A stretch of 64,000 bases of DNA, from positions 1,330,001-1,394,000 of the forward strand of contig NC_022792.1 of the NCBI RefSeq assembly GCF_000504085.1. Direction: 5' to 3'. The translations under genes and the position numbers were made by a program. Positions 13,351 through 47,301 of the stretch are shown here, in pieces. Within the stretch, counting starts at the first letter, position 1. The number at the start of each line of letters is the position of its first letter. The notes beneath the pieces are model-generated. The model was not told the DNA's origin. It made no database searches and saw nothing but the letters and a program-made list of their open reading frames with translations. This stretch comes from Pseudothermotoga elfii DSM 9442 = NBRC 107921 (GTDB lineage: Bacteria; Thermotogota; Thermotogae; Thermotogales; DSM-5069).

Positions 13351-13671
13351 TTGGTTCTTGCAACAACAGAACAAATAGCAGGTTATGAGATAATTGAGAC
13401 ATTGGGTATCGTTCTGGGTAATACAGTGCATTCCAAGCACCTTGGAAAAGATATCGCAGCTGCTTTCAAAACATTGGCAGGCGGGGAAATCAGATCTTAC
13501 ACAGAGCTTCTCACAGAGGCGAGAAATATAGCGATTCAAAGAATGATCGCTGAGGCGGAAAAACTCGGTGCTGATGCAATAGTTGGCATAAAATTTGGAA
13601 GTTCATCAGTAATGCAATCTGCAGCCGAGGTACTCGCTTATGGAACAGCAGTGAAAATCAAGAAGATTTGA
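13351..13671 (+). CDS. YbjQ/UPF0145-family protein
   Basis: A 106-residue protein of the UPF0145 family (YbjQ; DUF74), which forms pentameric rings; the cellular role is unknown. Typical segments are GYEIIETLGIVLGNTV near the N-terminus, LTEARNIAIQRMIAEAEKLG in the central helix, and GADAIVGIKFGSSSV followed by EVLAYGTAVKI at the end. The start is TTG at 13351, supported by TAGGAGGGG 7 nt upstream. It follows the phospholipase-like gene by 20 bp, so the two may share a transcript. Its last 14 bp overlap the end of lysA. Confidence 0.9.
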   Translation: MVLATTEQIAGYEIIETLGIVLGNTVHSKHLGKDIAAAFKTLAGGEIRSYTELLTEARNIAIQRMIAEAEKLGADAIVGIKFGSSSVMQSAAEVLAYGTAVKIKKI

Positions 13672-14806
13672 TGAATTTTTCTCCGTCCCAGATAACCTCT
13701 ATCGGTTTTGGGATAAGATTATATTCCGATGCCATTGCAAAACCATATGCGCCAACGTCGCATATAGTTATTAATTCGCCTTCAGCGGGTTCTGGTAATT
13801 TGTATTCTTTTCTGAGAACATCAGAACTTTCGCAAGCTGGTCCAACAATATCTGCTACAATCATTTTTCTGTCATTTGATGGATACAGAGGTATTATTTT
13901 GTGTTTTGCACCATACAAAGCTGGCCTTATCAAATGAGTCATACCTGTGTCGACAACAACAAAAATTTTATATCTGGTTTTTTTAACATATTCCACTTTT
14001 GAAATTAAATAACCAGCAGGTGCAGTGATCCATCTACCAAGTTCGAAAATAACAGTTTTCATAGTTTTTTTCAGTAAAGGTAGAATCTTATTTCTGTATT
14101 CGTTCAGGTCTAAGAATTTTCCGTCTCCGTAATCAATACCCCATCCTCCGCCGAGATTCAAAATCTCTATTTCGATGCCTGTTTTTTCTATAAAATCTAT
14201 TAATGATGTAATAGCCTCTAAATATGGTTGAATCTCCGTTATCTGAGAACCAATATGGCAGTGAAAACCTATGAGTTTTAAATATTTGTTTTTTTCAATC
14301 CTGCGTATCATTGCCGCAGCAGTGTCAAAATCCACACCAAATTTGTTTTCTTTAAGACCAGTTGAAATATGTGGGTGAGTTTTCGCATCAACATCAGGGT
14401 TTACTCTTATAGAAATATTTGTTTGTGAATCTATGATCTTTTCAAGCCTCAGTAACTCTTCGTAGCTGTCAAGGTTTATGGAAAAAACGCCGTTGTTGAC
14501 ATAAGTTTTAAGTTGATCGACTTTTTTGCAATTTCCATTCACAATAATTCTATCTGGAGCAAATCCAATCGAACGTGCATGCAAATATTCCCCATAAGAG
14601 ACAACATCGATCATTAATCCAAAATTGTTGAGAGTTTTTAAAAGATCTCTATTGAAATTCGCTTTCATTGCATAGGCAATGCGAAAATCGAGATCGAAAA
14701 AAAGATCTTTCAGAGAAGTTATTCTTTTTATGATGAAGGGTAAATCATATACATATAAGGGCGTTCCATAGATATCTGCTGCCTGTTTAAGAAGATCAGT
14801 CTGCAA
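13658..14806 (-). CDS. lysA: Diaminopimelate decarboxylase
   Basis: A 382-residue PLP enzyme (fold III) converting meso-diaminopimelate to L-lysine. Motifs: YAMKANFNRDLLK with the PLP lysine, IGFHCHIGSQI, the glycine-rich phosphate loop LNLGGGWGIDYG, and the C-terminal substrate loop GPACESSDVLRK plus CDVGAYGFAMASEYN. Length is slightly short for the family (about 400-420) but all catalytic motifs are present. The start is TTG with GAGGTGAAT upstream. No other lysine gene is near; it overlaps the convergent YbjQ-family gene by 14 bp. Confidence 0.95.
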   Translation of the reverse strand: MQTDLLKQAADIYGTPLYVYDLPFIIKRITSLKDLFFDLDFRIAYAMKANFNRDLLKTLNNFGLMIDVVSYGEYLHARSIGFAPDRIIVNGNCKKVDQLKTYVNNGVFSINLDSYEELLRLEKIIDSQTNISIRVNPDVDAKTHPHISTGLKENKFGVDFDTAAAMIRRIEKNKYLKLIGFHCHIGSQITEIQPYLEAITSLIDFIEKTGIEIEILNLGGGWGIDYGDGKFLDLNEYRNKILPLLKKTMKTVIFELGRWITAPAGYLISKVEYVKKTRYKIFVVVDTGMTHLIRPALYGAKHKIIPLYPSNDRKMIVADIVGPACESSDVLRKEYKLPEPAEGELITICDVGAYGFAMASEYNLIPKPIEVIWDGEKFIKSS

Positions 14807-15567: not shown

Positions 15568-16526
15568 ACCGTCACCTCACTTTTTTTGAACCTTCTCACG
15601 GCAATCACAGCTATTACAAACAATGCAGTTAATAACTTCATGTCACTTGGCTTGAACCCTATGCGGTAACCGTACTTCATCGCTAAACTCAGTAAAATCT
15701 GGTACAATAATGCCCCAATTACAGGAAACAAAATCCCATACATAAACTCGAATCTCCCGAAAATTATTTCTCCCAAGATGACAGCAGCGAGGCAAACCAC
15801 AACCGTACCTATTCCCATGTTCACGTCCGCAAATCCGCTGTACATAGAAAATAGAGCACCTGAAAGCCCCGTGAAAATGTTACCGGTTATCAGACCAACA
15901 TATGCAAACAGGTCTGGATTTACTCCCAGTACTTTAACAGCAAACCTATTTTTTCCATAACCGCGAAACATCATACCAAATTCTGTCCTTAAAAAAAGCC
16001 AGCTAACAAAAACTAAAACAAGGACAATCGCGGCTATAATAAGTAAATCGTGTCCATCGGCGGCATTTGTGAAGGGAATCTTTACTGCTTTTAACCCTGT
16101 CCCCTCGAATTTGATATCTGCACCAGCGCCAAGAATATCGTCAAGTGGTGTTTTTCCAACGACCTGCTCATAACTCATAACTTTTCCCGTATCAAATTTT
16201 GGTACCGGTAAATTAGGAGCGTTCATAACCCTTATGCTCAGAGAATACAGACCTGTCATGACCATAATAGAGGCAAGGAGCGAATTTATTTTGAATCTCG
16301 TGGTTATAAATGCAACAACAACACCTGCTGCGCCAGCGGAAAGCGCAGCAATTATTGTTGAGAAAACCCACCCATGGCCGGCATGAAGAAGGACAACCGC
16401 AACGGCTCCCCCAAGAACGTAGGAACCGTCGGGCGTCAGATCTGGAAGATCAACAAGGCGGAATGATATATATACACCCATGGCGGCCAAAGATAACAAA
16501 AGTCCCTGCTCAATTATCGGTATCAT
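15564..16526 (-). CDS. ABC transporter permease, TrpY-like
   Basis: A 320-residue inner-membrane permease of the BPD_transp_2 family (branched-chain amino acid/ribose type) with about nine hydrophobic segments. The early segment LVDLPDLTPDGSYVLGGAVA and the coupling-region stretch GYGKNRFAVKVLGVNPDLFAY, split here by VGLITGNI, are typical of permeases working with PF04392 binding proteins. ATGA-type overlap with both neighbours shows a translationally coupled operon. The substrate assignment rests on the leader attenuator. Confidence 0.86.
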   Translation of the reverse strand: MIPIIEQGLLLSLAAMGVYISFRLVDLPDLTPDGSYVLGGAVAVVLLHAGHGWVFSTIIAALSAGAAGVVVAFITTRFKINSLLASIMVMTGLYSLSIRVMNAPNLPVPKFDTGKVMSYEQVVGKTPLDDILGAGADIKFEGTGLKAVKIPFTNAADGHDLLIIAAIVLVLVFVSWLFLRTEFGMMFRGYGKNRFAVKVLGVNPDLFAYVGLITGNIFTGLSGALFSMYSGFADVNMGIGTVVVCLAAVILGEIIFGRFEFMYGILFPVIGALLYQILLSLAMKYGYRIGFKPSDMKLLTALFVIAVIAVRRFKKSEVTV

Positions 16527-17494
16527 TTCTGCACCTCTTGACCTTTTTCAACAAGAATATCTGCTCTTTCAACAAGATCTGCAGGTATCTGTACACCAAG
16601 TTTTTGAGCAAGATCGAGGTTTATATAAAGCAACAATGACTCCGGCCCGACAACATGAGATTCAAGATCTTGCGGGTTAGCCCCTTTGAGCAGTTCTACC
16701 AGAAGCCGACCTGTCTCAACACCAACCTGAAAATAGTTGAAACCAAACCCTATGACACCTCCTCCACGAGCTATATCTATGTCGGCAGCCACTATCGGCT
16801 TGCCCAGTCTTAGAGCCACATTACCAATCGCTTCGATAGAAGATGCCGCTGTATTATCTGTTCCTATGTACAGAACATCAACATCAGGACCTATGCTGTT
16901 CAATGCGCTGATCATCTCACTTGGTGATGTTCCAGGAATGTCGATTATGGTCAGTTCAAGAGATAGTGCAGAAGATTTCGCAATATTGGTAAGCGTCACT
17001 GAATTTGGTTCTCCAGGATTATAGATAACACCTATCTTTTTTGCAACCGGAAATACCTTTTTAATTAATTTTAAATGCGTACTGACTGGAACCATATCGG
17101 ATATTCCAACCACATTTGAATCATTTCTGCCAAGTTGCTTTATTAACCCTGCCCCAACAGGATCTGTCACTGCTGCAAATACAACGGGTCTATCGCTTAT
17201 AGCTTGAACACATGCCTGAGCTGAGGGAGTTGCTATCGCCACAATGAAATCCATTTTTTCAGTGGCAAATTTTCTGGCTATAGCTACAGCATTTTGCATA
17301 TTTCCTTGAGCATTCTGCCTATCTACAATAACATCCTGGCCCACCTTAAAACCTGCATCCTCAATTGCTTTGACGACACCATCAAAAACTGCATTCAAAG
17401 CTGGATGATCGACGATCTGTGTTATGCCTACTTTTACCACAGATAAACAGATGACTGAAAGGAAAACAATTATGGCGGAAACCCACTTTTTCAT
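16523..17494 (-). CDS. ABC substrate-binding protein, TrpX-like (PF04392)
   Basis: A 323-residue exported binding protein. After a signal peptide (MKKWVSAIIVFLSVICL) it begins VGITQIVDHPALNAVFDG, and continues GQDVIVDRQNAQGNMQNAVA, ATPSAQACVQAISDRPVVF and AVTDPVGAGLI, the standard PF04392 pattern. In streptococci this family includes TrpX of a tryptophan importer. The frame is open to 17536, but the ATG at 17494 starts the signal peptide and has GGAGG upstream; the longer form would run into the terminator hairpin. First gene of the operon, so directly exposed to the attenuator. Confidence 0.88.
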   Translation of the reverse strand: MKKWVSAIIVFLSVICLSVVKVGITQIVDHPALNAVFDGVVKAIEDAGFKVGQDVIVDRQNAQGNMQNAVAIARKFATEKMDFIVAIATPSAQACVQAISDRPVVFAAVTDPVGAGLIKQLGRNDSNVVGISDMVPVSTHLKLIKKVFPVAKKIGVIYNPGEPNSVTLTNIAKSSALSLELTIIDIPGTSPSEMISALNSIGPDVDVLYIGTDNTAASSIEAIGNVALRLGKPIVAADIDIARGGGVIGFGFNYFQVGVETGRLLVELLKGANPQDLESHVVGPESLLLYINLDLAQKLGVQIPADLVERADILVEKGQEVQK

Positions 17495-17520: not shown

Positions 17521-17556
17521 TAAAAAAAGAGGGCATCCTTTCTGGATGCCCTCTTC
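17521..17556 (-). terminator. Attenuator terminator of the tryptophan leader
   Basis: On the minus strand a 12-bp stem, AAGAGGGCATCC (17555-17544), loop AGAAA, GGATGCCCTCTT (17538-17527), runs into U7. It sits between the leader peptide and the ribosome site of the binding protein. Its 5' arm is also complementary over 10 nt to ATGCCCTCTT inside the leader ORF (17620-17611), which allows an alternative antiterminator. Confidence 0.9.
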
Positions 17557-17626
17557 TTTTTATTAAGATTCCCCCTGTTTATGTAGCAAGTGGCATCAGG
17601 GGAATCTGAGAAGAGGGCATTCCCCT
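17557..17626 (-). promoter_or_regulatory. Antiterminator and protector segments of the Trp attenuator
   Basis: Reading the minus strand: AGGGGAAT (17626-17619) can pair with ATTCCCCT (17605-17598), giving a protector hairpin. AGATTCCCCTG (17607-17597) can instead pair with CAGGGGGAATCT (17577-17566, one bulge). That inner stem is nested inside ATGCCCTCTT (17620-17611) paired with the terminator 5' arm (17555-17546). The mutually exclusive set has the logic of ribosome-mediated attenuation. Confidence 0.8.
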
Positions 17627-17683
17627 AAACCACCAATAAGCGTATGCAAATGCAACTACCTTTCTACCTTTGAATCTACTCAT
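17579..17683 (-). CDS. Tryptophan leader peptide
   Basis: A 34-residue ORF: ATG at 17683, with GGAGG at 17695-17691 seven nt upstream, stop TAA at 17581-17579. The peptide starts MSRFKGRKVVAFAYAYWWFR and contains two adjacent tryptophan codons (17635-17630), preceded by AYAY. The Trp pair lies immediately before the first strand of the protector hairpin, so a ribosome stalled for lack of charged tRNA-Trp would cover that strand and release the antiterminator. When tryptophan is plentiful the ribosome reaches the stop codon, covers the antiterminator strands and lets the terminator form. Too short for routine gene calling; the codon content and position make it convincing. Confidence 0.88.
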   Translation of the reverse strand: MSRFKGRKVVAFAYAYWWFRGMPSSQIPLMPLAT

Positions 17684-17715
17684 CGGTTATCCTCCAAAAA
17701 GATTATTTTTAATGT

Positions 17716-17744
17716 ATAATATCAAAAGTACAAAAGTTTGTCAA
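17716..17744 (-). promoter_or_regulatory. Promoter of the tryptophan-attenuated transporter operon
   Basis: TTGACA (17744-17739), a 17-nt spacer and TATTAT (17721-17716) on the minus strand. Transcription would start near 17709, about 14 nt before the Shine-Dalgarno of the leader peptide. No operator-like dyad is visible, so attenuation is likely the main control. Confidence 0.82.
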
Positions 17745-23998: not shown

Positions 23999-24025
23999 CC
24001 ACTTTCCCGGTTTCGGAGAAAGTGG
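23999..24025 (-). promoter_or_regulatory. Expression-platform hairpin of the cobalamin riboswitch
   Basis: CCACTTTC (24025-24018) pairs with GAAAGTGG (24006-23999) across an 11-nt loop on the minus strand, followed by TGAAAAATTTTG. It lies between the B12 box and the btuF ribosome site. The short U-run means it could be a weak terminator or part of a translation-control structure. Confidence 0.5.
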
Positions 24026-24029
24026 CGAG

Positions 24030-24190
24030 CTTAATCGAAGGGCAGGTCTCCCGACTTCCGGATCATCCTACTTCCCACACCTTCCCAGCAATGCCAGTGG
24101 TATCTGTGGGTTTCGTCCCCGGTCACGGTGGCGTCCCCGTGCCGGATTTTCACCGGCTTCCCTATTAAACCTTCTTGGTACCCTCCGACG
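24030..24190 (-). ncRNA. Cobalamin (AdoCbl) riboswitch
   Basis: On the minus strand the region reads, in order, AAGGTTTAATAGGGAAGCCG, GTGAAAATCCGGCACGGGGA, CGCCACCGTGACCGGGGACG, GTGGGAAG, then the B12-box-like CCGGAAGTCGGGAGACCTGC (complement of 24041-24060). GCCGGTGAAAATCCGGC and the B12 box are hallmarks of the class. It lies directly upstream of btuF and should lower expression when cobalamin is abundant. Confidence 0.95.
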
Positions 24191-24198
24191 CTTCTTAT

Positions 24199-25440
24199 TC
24201 AGTTTTCGTTTGTATTATACAACGAAAATATCCCATTCAACAACAGCGGGAATAGATATGCCACAACAGGCAAGAATAAACGAACTTCTCTTGTTAAAGC
24301 TACCAGTGCATTCATCGCAATGAATGGAAGTATCCAGCTCCATGTTTTTTTGTAAAACTCAATTTTTCTTATCTTCTGCACGAAAATCAATGGTAAAGCA
24401 AAAAATATCGCAGGGTAAACCCATGCCCAGGGATCAGAAAGGTTATCTTTTATCCTGATCAGTGGTGTGTAGTAAGTAGCATTTGGAAATATCACTTTCG
24501 CCAAAAGATAAGTCATCAGAATGGGGAAAATTGTTACGGAAACAATCTTGGGCACTCTGTCCTTATTCCACGGGAAGTTATAAAGACCATAAATAACAGC
24601 AATAAAAAAGGCGTGATCTGTTCTTACAAAAGATTGAATTACTACAAGTATGAAGATACTCCACCACGGTTTTCTTTTGTAAATGAGTATTACACCGAGA
24701 ATAAAAAGCAGCAATGAGACGTGAAATTCCTGCTGGAGAAAATCACCATAACTGAATGCCAAGAATATGGAATAAGCAAACATGGAAAGATAAGAAACAA
24801 GCTCATTGCATAAAGTTCTCATCCAAAAATACAATAACAGAAGTACACCAATTGTAGCAAAAAAACGCATAGTGGCATATCCATAAATGACTTTGTTCAA
24901 ATCGCTCTTATCATCGAAAACCTGAGTGAACTCATATGGTAACTGCTTAATTAATTTGCTCACAAACTCAAAAGGATCTTGAAACCAAGTTTTCCAACCC
25001 AAGTTATTTACAATGTTCAACAGAATATTTGTCGTCATTACATTATTGGTAATCTCTAACAATTTTTCTTTGATAAAGCCTCCAACATCGTTTGCAAGTT
25101 TATCGCGATCTTCCAGAGAAAGATACGAATCAAGATTCAGTTTATTGTCAAGCACGGCGCTGGGATTGTTGTCAAAACCGGCCCATCTTTTCACAGTAAG
25201 ATATGGACTGCAATACCAGCGCATTGGTATGTGTTTAAAAAATTTTTCAACGAGCAGATATGGTACAAATCTGTACTGATTTGGAGCAGGTCCTTTACCT
25301 TCTACATACATGTTATGTGAATAATAAAAGAAAAAACGCCCCCCTAAACTGAAAACATTTTCAACTAACCAAAACCCTATCGATGTTACAAAGTAGGCAA
25401 GCACTAAAGCAGTTAGTATTAAGACGATGATTTTTCTCAT
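24199..25440 (-). CDS. Polytopic membrane protein, GT-C glycosyltransferase-like
   Basis: A 413-residue protein with one N-terminal helix (8-30), a soluble stretch of about 150 residues (RWAGFDNNPSAVLDNKLNLD onward), then eight to nine helices to the C-terminus. The layout, an early extracytoplasmic region containing acidic residues followed by many helices, resembles GT-C type lipid-sugar-dependent transferases, but I recognise no specific family. The ATG at 25440 overlaps the stop of the DUF362 gene, so the two are coupled. The operon also encodes a UbiA/DPPR-synthase-like enzyme and a small DMT protein. That suggests use of a polyprenyl-phosphate-linked sugar outside the membrane; this is inference. 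Confidence 0.6.
   Translation of the reverse strand: MRKIIVLILTALVLAYFVTSIGFWLVENVFSLGGRFFFYYSHNMYVEGKGPAPNQYRFVPYLLVEKFFKHIPMRWYCSPYLTVKRWAGFDNNPSAVLDNKLNLDSYLSLEDRDKLANDVGGFIKEKLLEITNNVMTTNILLNIVNNLGWKTWFQDPFEFVSKLIKQLPYEFTQVFDDKSDLNKVIYGYATMRFFATIGVLLLLYFWMRTLCNELVSYLSMFAYSIFLAFSYGDFLQQEFHVSLLLFILGVILIYKRKPWWSIFILVVIQSFVRTDHAFFIAVIYGLYNFPWNKDRVPKIVSVTIFPILMTYLLAKVIFPNATYYTPLIRIKDNLSDPWAWVYPAIFFALPLIFVQKIRKIEFYKKTWSWILPFIAMNALVALTREVRLFLPVVAYLFPLLLNGIFSLYNTNEN
24214..24243 (-). promoter_or_regulatory. Promoter for the riboswitch-btuFCD transcript
   Basis: TATAAT (24219-24214) on the minus strand with TTGTTG about 18 nt upstream. It lies inside the last codons of the GT-C-like membrane-protein gene, which is transcribed in the same direction, so read-through from that operon could also feed btuFCD. 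Confidence 0.5.
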
Positions 25441-47175: not shown

Positions 47176-47196
47176 GAGAATATCAAGTAAATATTT

Positions 47197-47297
47197 GTGC
47201 AGGGGAGCTTCTAACCCGAGGCTGAGAGGAGGACGGAAGTCCTCGACCCTTGAACCTGATCCGGGTAATGCCGGCGTAGGGAGCAAACCAAAAACAA
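47197..47297 (+). ncRNA. TPP riboswitch (THI element)
   Basis: Conserved parts appear in order: GGGGAGCTT, GGCTGAGAGG, a variable hairpin (GAGGACGGAAGTCCTC), GACCCTTGAACCTGATCCGG and GTAATGCCGGCGTAGGGA. Ligand binding should switch off the downstream thiamine importer, here through the hairpin at 47302-47320. Confidence 0.96.
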
Positions 47298-47301
47298 AAT
47301 T

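Follow-up and report, generated by a model that had tools for sequence, protein, structure and literature searches.

What controls the TrpX-like ABC importer of Pseudothermotoga elfii, and what does that control say about the amino acids that it carries? In the window, by which we mean the whole stretch of 64,000 nucleotides that was analysed, the importer genes lie on the minus strand behind a short leader (Table 1), which the initial annotation, made from the sequence alone, took to be a complete tryptophan attenuator that assigns tryptophan to an otherwise generic transporter. Our results favour, with a probability of roughly 0.78, a reading that keeps the mechanism and broadens the substrate, i.e. 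an ABC importer for aromatic amino acids under the control of a ribosome-mediated transcription attenuator; the best reading in detail is that of a pan-aromatic importer under Trp-weighted aromatic attenuation.

The leader and its alternative structures

Computation locates in the minus-strand sequence every element that had been described, including the near-consensus promoter, the 34-codon leader ORF with its own Shine-Dalgarno sequence and two adjacent Trp codons, the protector, both parts of a nested antiterminator, and the terminator with a U7 tract ahead of the binding-protein gene; protector, antiterminator and intrinsic terminator are mutually exclusive. The protector (17634-17619 with 17605-17589, -22.4 kcal/mol) is slightly longer than first described, with the Trp codons themselves inside it, and the outer antiterminator arm sits almost entirely within the protector loop. 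That arm, ATGCCCTCTTCT (17620-17609), pairs with AGAAGAGGGCAT, and the inner arm, AGATTCCCCTG, with the segment termed 3a (17577-17566), whereas the terminator reads GAGGGCATCC-AGAAA-GGATGCCCTC-U7 (17553-17522, minus strand). Read on the plus strand, the terminator hairpin (17527-17555) likewise has a T-rich tract behind it, CTTTTTATTA, and may work in both directions.

Table 1. Elements of the leader and genes behind it, in window coordinates
Feature	Position	Strand	Remark
Promoter, TTGACA-17-TATTAT with extended TG	17716..17744	minus	consensus match only, 11/12 positions
Shine-Dalgarno GGAGG of leader ORF	17691..17695	minus	from sequence
Leader ORF, 34 codons, MSRFKGRKVVAFAYAYWWFRGMPSSQIPLMPLAT	17579..17683	minus	from sequence; ATG 17683 to TAA 17579
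Trp17-Trp18 codons, side by side	17630..17635	minus	Tyr14 and Tyr16 just 5'; Phe19 just 3'
Protector 5' arm (region 1), GGTGGTTTAGGGGAAT	17619..17634	minus	overlaps Trp codons
Antiterminator outer 5' arm, ATGCCCTCTTCT	17609..17620	minus	third copy of terminator 3' arm
Antiterminator inner 5' arm, AGATTCCCCTG	17597..17607	minus	pairs with 3a
Protector 3' arm (region 2)	17589..17605	minus	overlaps inner antiterminator arm; equivalent stem covaries
Antiterminator inner 3' arm (3a), CAGGGGGAATCT	17566..17577	minus	
Terminator 5' arm = antiterminator outer 3' arm, AAAAGAAGAGGGCATCC	17544..17560	minus	
Terminator 3' arm, GGATGCCCTC, and U7 tract	17522..17538	minus	
Substrate-binding protein, PF04392 (ABC_sub_bind), TrpX-like	16523..17494	minus	
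Permease, PF02653	15564..16526	minus	
ABC ATPase, PF00005	14818..15567	minus	
lysA (diaminopimelate decarboxylase)	13658..14806	minus	11 nt behind ATPase gene

The 189-nt leader folds to -66 kcal/mol (z = -4.9 against 200 shuffles; RNA folding was computed at 37 °C, not at the growth temperature), and the full-length terminator conformer is computed as the more stable in 43 of 44 leaders. Equilibrium folding failed as proof of the protector, because unmasked RNA without the terminator 3' arm prefers the antiterminator even when no ribosome is present; the protector must therefore act kinetically, forming first and having to be opened, and for this reason refolding barriers were used. For the window's leader, refolding from protector to antiterminator has to overcome 21.8 kcal/mol in the absence of a ribosome and 5.8 kcal/mol with one stalled at the first Trp codon. 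Folding with and without a ribosome footprint, the check proposed in the initial annotation, bore out the switch in terms of the barrier but not of the equilibrium, which favours the antiterminator anyway.

Along the aromatic run the barrier declines from 22 kcal/mol at F-30 (Phe12) through 17 at Y-24 (Tyr14) and 10 at Y-18 (Tyr16) to 6 at each of W-15, W-12 and F-9 (Phe19), a stall at the last of which already covers half of the antiterminator arm. The Trp codons are best placed in the window, with Tyr16 and Phe19 partly effective, and a stall at the two Trp codons does, as had been proposed, best free the antiterminator; in two close relatives (G008 and G009) Trp has no advantage over the Tyr codon beside WW. 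How Tyr and Phe weigh relative to Trp is predicted from codon position and comparison. With the RNA masked as by a stalled ribosome, stalls as far as the aromatic run left the antiterminator arm free, and it was lost to stalls at the end of the run or up to a few codons beyond; the aromatic codons end where a stalled ribosome starts to cover that arm. The codons are so placed that a stall blocks the protector and frees the antiterminator, an effect that a few leaders from other genomes show weakly or in reverse: the barrier drops upon stalling in 41 of 44 leaders, as it does in the window, and is not lowered in three (two of them Phe-only) by a stall at the first Trp codon or, where there is none, at the first aromatic codon. 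Five leaders of the g36 group have a small unmasked barrier, of 5-7 kcal/mol.

We propose that RNA polymerase would start at about 17709 and that a ribosome would translate the 34-codon leader. Were charged tRNA-Trp short (or, with less effect, tRNA-Tyr or tRNA-Phe), the ribosome would stall in the YAYWWF run and cover region 1, blocking the protector hairpin; the nested antiterminator arms could then pair with 3a and the terminator 5' arm, and readthrough would allow transcription of the genes for the binding protein, permease and ATPase, and of lysA. With all aromatic tRNAs charged, the ribosome would pass over the antiterminator arm and the protector would close behind it, such that the terminator would form and transcription would end ahead of the genes. 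We infer that living cells attenuate in this way, and that both sensing and transport extend from Trp to Tyr and Phe. The aromatic attenuator may also drive lysA, a lysine gene, since it lies 11 nt behind the ATPase gene in an order kept in the four other loci of the window's family (f1) in which it was found (L020, L021, L022 and L120).

Conservation and covariation in Thermotogota

A homologous binding-protein gene is present in 40 of 103 Thermotogota genomes, at 47 loci after one fragment was put aside, and the same leader architecture lies upstream of all 47. Each leader has a short ORF with a ribosome binding site and a run of aromatic, regulatory codons, a terminator and, just behind the run, a third copy of its 3' arm; 44 were parsed by machine, two by a slightly different version of the parser and one (G083) by eye. 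The parser, which needs a terminator, the third copy, and an ORF with a Shine-Dalgarno sequence and correctly spaced aromatic codons, recognizes the authentic window leader, with ORF-bearing matches in none of 1500 dinucleotide shuffles of it. Under stricter criteria it passes 43 of 44 leaders, none of 1100 shuffles and none of 4293 windows taken elsewhere in these loci. These controls, together with the architecture conserved at 47/47 loci and a protector that covaries, argue against a fortuitous ORF ahead of a constitutive attenuator or an upstream terminator of the ordinary kind. Termination could proceed without translation, given the strength of the hairpin, but we consider this the least probable of the readings weighed.

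The arms differ by lineage (GCCCUC, ACGUCCUUUC, AGACACC, GGCAUCCAC and others) and are complementary within each leader, with an A:T1 complementarity of 25.4 within leaders versus 12.9 across lineages; third copy, terminator arms and protector vary together between lineages. In the f9 alignment, covariation of protector and terminator comprises nine pairs, with 19 cells changed on both sides (0/500 shuffles), and is weaker in the f4 paralogs (four pairs, with a score reached by 1/500 shuffles). The antiterminator helix alone, which is out of register for one genus, did not covary above shuffles in the f9 alignment. The expectation that WW and the alternative stems would be kept in related leaders held in nine of ten f1-family (Pseudothermotoga-like) loci, the other, in G006, having one W; the frame and aromatic run of the leader ORF MSRFKGRKVVAFAYAYWWFRGMPSSQIPLMPLAT are kept among orthologs, and the f1-family architecture occurs far more widely in Thermotogota. 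A covariance model of Pseudothermotoga leaders, run on the organism's own genome, returned this one element, on both strands. With the same parser as above, no such leader was found upstream of 66 non-Thermotogota homologs, and the viral contigs searched yielded no homolog.

The comparison bears also on the possibility that the signal is a free aromatic amino acid instead of tRNA charging, sensed by a TnaC-like arrest peptide or through another form of peptide-specific stalling. A short aromatic leader peptide with RG.PSS conserved after the run speaks for such a mechanism; across lineages, however, just the aromatic run and its distance to the antiterminator arm are conserved and not the peptide, RG.PSS stemming from the RNA arm GCCCTCT and being replaced wherever that arm is replaced. 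Furthermore, F, Y and W exchange according to the downstream gene, and stalling here favours readthrough, i.e. induction by shortage, which makes peptide-specific stalling very improbable. Ribosome-mediated attenuation, by comparison of the leaders, appears well supported.

Two further loci, L090 (G069) and L121 (G020), encode binding proteins 68% and 75% identical, respectively, to that of the window, whereas other members of the families of these genomes are ~50% identical or lack the gene; it is thus likely that operon and leader moved together by horizontal transfer.

Leader codons, binding pocket and substrate

A covariance model of the Pseudothermotoga leaders (R1) also matched regions adjoining trp and aromatic genes, enabling the codons of leaders to be compared with the genes behind them. 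The comparison was compiled with our own parser and, partly by eye, from the model matches and the regions upstream of trpE and DAHP synthase genes; by these means no leader was found in several genomes that have the biosynthetic genes. Many weaker R1 matches were plain terminators or unrelated hairpins (L166-L168, L175, L177 and L179) and were not counted.

The leaders of trp operons have a Trp-only control region, usually WWW, in 13 genomes (G006, G047, G060, G084, G085, G086 and G094-G100); in G086 the next gene is trpB, and the leader of G100 stands before a DAHP synthase gene, with matches to trpE and trpB 4 and 8 kb further on. Mixed leaders that include Trp precede DAHP synthase in 11 genomes, among them G006, in which the leader FFYAYWFRGMPSSG is nearly that of its own importer and the trp leader is NWWWLW; DAHP-synthase leaders are Tyr-only in G020 (which has tyrA and lacks pheA and trpB), G087, G089 and, by eye, G072. 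In G047, an FEYYYYF leader stands before aroH, followed by DAHP synthase (aroF) and tyrA genes, and in the Thermotoga-family trp operon examined (G021), trpE lies ~17 nt behind another gene and has no leader. Among the 47 importer leaders, 39 belong to the mixed class with Trp and two (G068 and G093) to the Trp-only class, three are Phe-only (G045, G057 and G093) and three have Tyr without Trp (G045, G057 and G083); in 11 genomes the importer leader is mixed although the trp leader is Trp-only. Read by this codon code of the phylum, the window's leader, F.YAYWWF, is of the mixed class, with the Trp codons best placed and Tyr and Phe flanking.

Two observations made in passing concern single loci. 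In L115 (G093, C5:128342) the binding-protein gene behind a Phe-only leader has an in-frame TAA and is possibly decayed, and in L165:400-900 (G047, C43) a Trp-only leader, SAWWWHRSLFFEG, and a terminator precede a gene for a TIGR04076 plus ferredoxin-like protein, for which a tryptophan-linked function is possible.

The window's binding protein matches PF04392 with 261 bits (gathering cut-off 25.9) and is followed by PF02653 and PF00005 proteins, in agreement with the TrpXYZ-like importer first described; it falls below the cut-off of the TrpX equivalog NF041285 (NCBIfam; 235.8 bits versus 390) in a nearly full-length match. The only solved relatives found are 3lkv, 6hni and 3lft, which hold Phe, Tyr and Trp, respectively (PMC6816091), and the sequence matches to these three ligand-bound structures settle the fold. 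The residues named as contacting the amino-acid backbone in TrpX (PMC9382623) are all present. Two further positions are said to set side-chain preference, with Tyr at the second excluding Trp (PMC6816091). At the first (Glu263) the window has Asp, the Tyr binder Glu and the other two Ala; at the second (Gln284) the window has Tyr, with Gln only in the Trp binder, such that the TrpX-type pair known from the Trp binder SP1069, Ala268 and Gln284 (PMC6816091), is replaced by Asp and Tyr. Of the 47 loci, all 42 with a Tyr-containing leader have Asp at the first position, and three of the five without leader Tyr have Phe there (the Phe-only G045 and G057 and the Trp-only G068), an association with an exact probability of ~6e-4 that may reflect no more than two independent changes. 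Behind Trp-only leaders, too, Tyr is found at the second position, and so it need not exclude Trp.

The organism's own genome is 99.96% complete, and in it, at the thresholds used, trpB, trpE, prephenate dehydratase (pheA), prephenate dehydrogenase (tyrA) and the DAHP synthase family searched were all unmatched; the organism is therefore probably auxotrophic for all three aromatic amino acids. The genome has a single importer of the PF04392/TrpX-like kind, and its position under a leader with codons for all three fits this probable auxotrophy.

A tryptophan importer whose attenuator responds to the WW codons only is, in our view, unlikely, although several results point towards it: W-15 and W-12 combine the lowest barrier with an antiterminator arm that is fully or nearly free, WW is kept in nine of ten f1-family loci, and the Trp-bound 3lft matches with E 7e-46. 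The phylum, however, writes Trp-only control as WWW, or as WW without Y or F, and the window's leader, whose run holds F, Y, Y, W, W and F, looks different from these and belongs to a class seen at DAHP synthase. Both 3lkv (Phe) and 6hni (Tyr) outscore 3lft, the pocket has Asp and Tyr in place of the Ala and Gln of the known Trp binder (PMC6816091), and the genome seems to need three aromatic amino acids with one such importer. On these grounds we prefer the pan-aromatic reading, with its emphasis on Trp, to the assignment of tryptophan as the substrate.

For the phylum as a whole, we see about even chances that these leaders form one set of attenuators for aromatic uptake and, in several lineages, synthesis, in which the codons have been re-written during paralog divergence, such that the codons of a leader would tell which amino acid the gene behind it serves, in parallel with the pocket residue at the Tyr hydroxyl.

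Relation to known attenuators and importers

The leader has no match at gathering score to Rfam Trp_leader or any other Rfam family, and the matches at low thresholds look like chance. Two other elements in the window do exceed their gathering scores, a cobalamin riboswitch (24024-24200, minus strand) and a TPP riboswitch (47191-47299, plus strand). T-boxes (RF00230) were found neither in the window nor, in a strict-filter search, in any of 103 Thermotogota genomes, and none reached Rfam's threshold at 13 Firmicutes loci. The generalization that TrpXYZ transporters of Firmicutes are typically T-box controlled holds for Streptococcus suis and S. pneumoniae, but not for S. pyogenes (PMC9382623).

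With E. coli trpL and the proteobacterial and actinobacterial leaders the window's switch shares a short translated leader with regulatory codons, a 1:2 protector, a 2:3 antiterminator that is freed by stalling and a 3:4 terminator (PMC1183508). It differs in coming from a different phylum, in having no Rfam match, in controlling an importer, in placing the antiterminator arm in the protector loop with a second, inner arm pairing inside, and in having codons for three aromatic amino acids and not for Trp alone. Single leaders with codons for several end products are known from E. coli ilvGMEDA and thr, which the window's leader resembles in its several regulatory amino acids, whereas the aromatic family, the importer and the sequence are different. 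The streptococcal TrpXYZ systems of S. suis and S. pneumoniae are alike in having a homologous binding protein and a three-part ABC importer induced by shortage of the amino acid; they differ in being controlled by a T-box (PMC9382623) where the window has a leader peptide, and the window's pocket has Tyr for the Gln and Asp for the Ala of streptococcal TrpX. The Tyr-binding CD0873 (Clostridium difficile; 6hni) and Phe-binding VC_1101 (Vibrio cholerae; 3lkv) have the residues for the amino-acid backbone in common with the window's protein (PMC6816091), and neither is known to have a leader attenuator.

The open-access literature searched contains no description of such leaders in Thermotogota, a phylum unmentioned in the main text of a broad survey of attenuators (PMC2965389), and this is apparently an undescribed family of a known attenuation mechanism. 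Classical ribosome-mediated attenuation would thereby reach into a thermophilic, deep-branching phylum without detected T-boxes, where it would act on importers besides biosynthesis. The codons of the leaders may provide a cheap and testable prediction of the substrates of otherwise generic importers, and also of how paralogs split the aromatic amino acids, for example among three tandem importers (Phe, mixed and Tyr) in two genomes. In these arrays (L116 in G045 and L117 in G057), with Phe-only, mixed and Tyr-only leaders, the position that contacts the Tyr hydroxyl is Phe, Asp and Asp, respectively.
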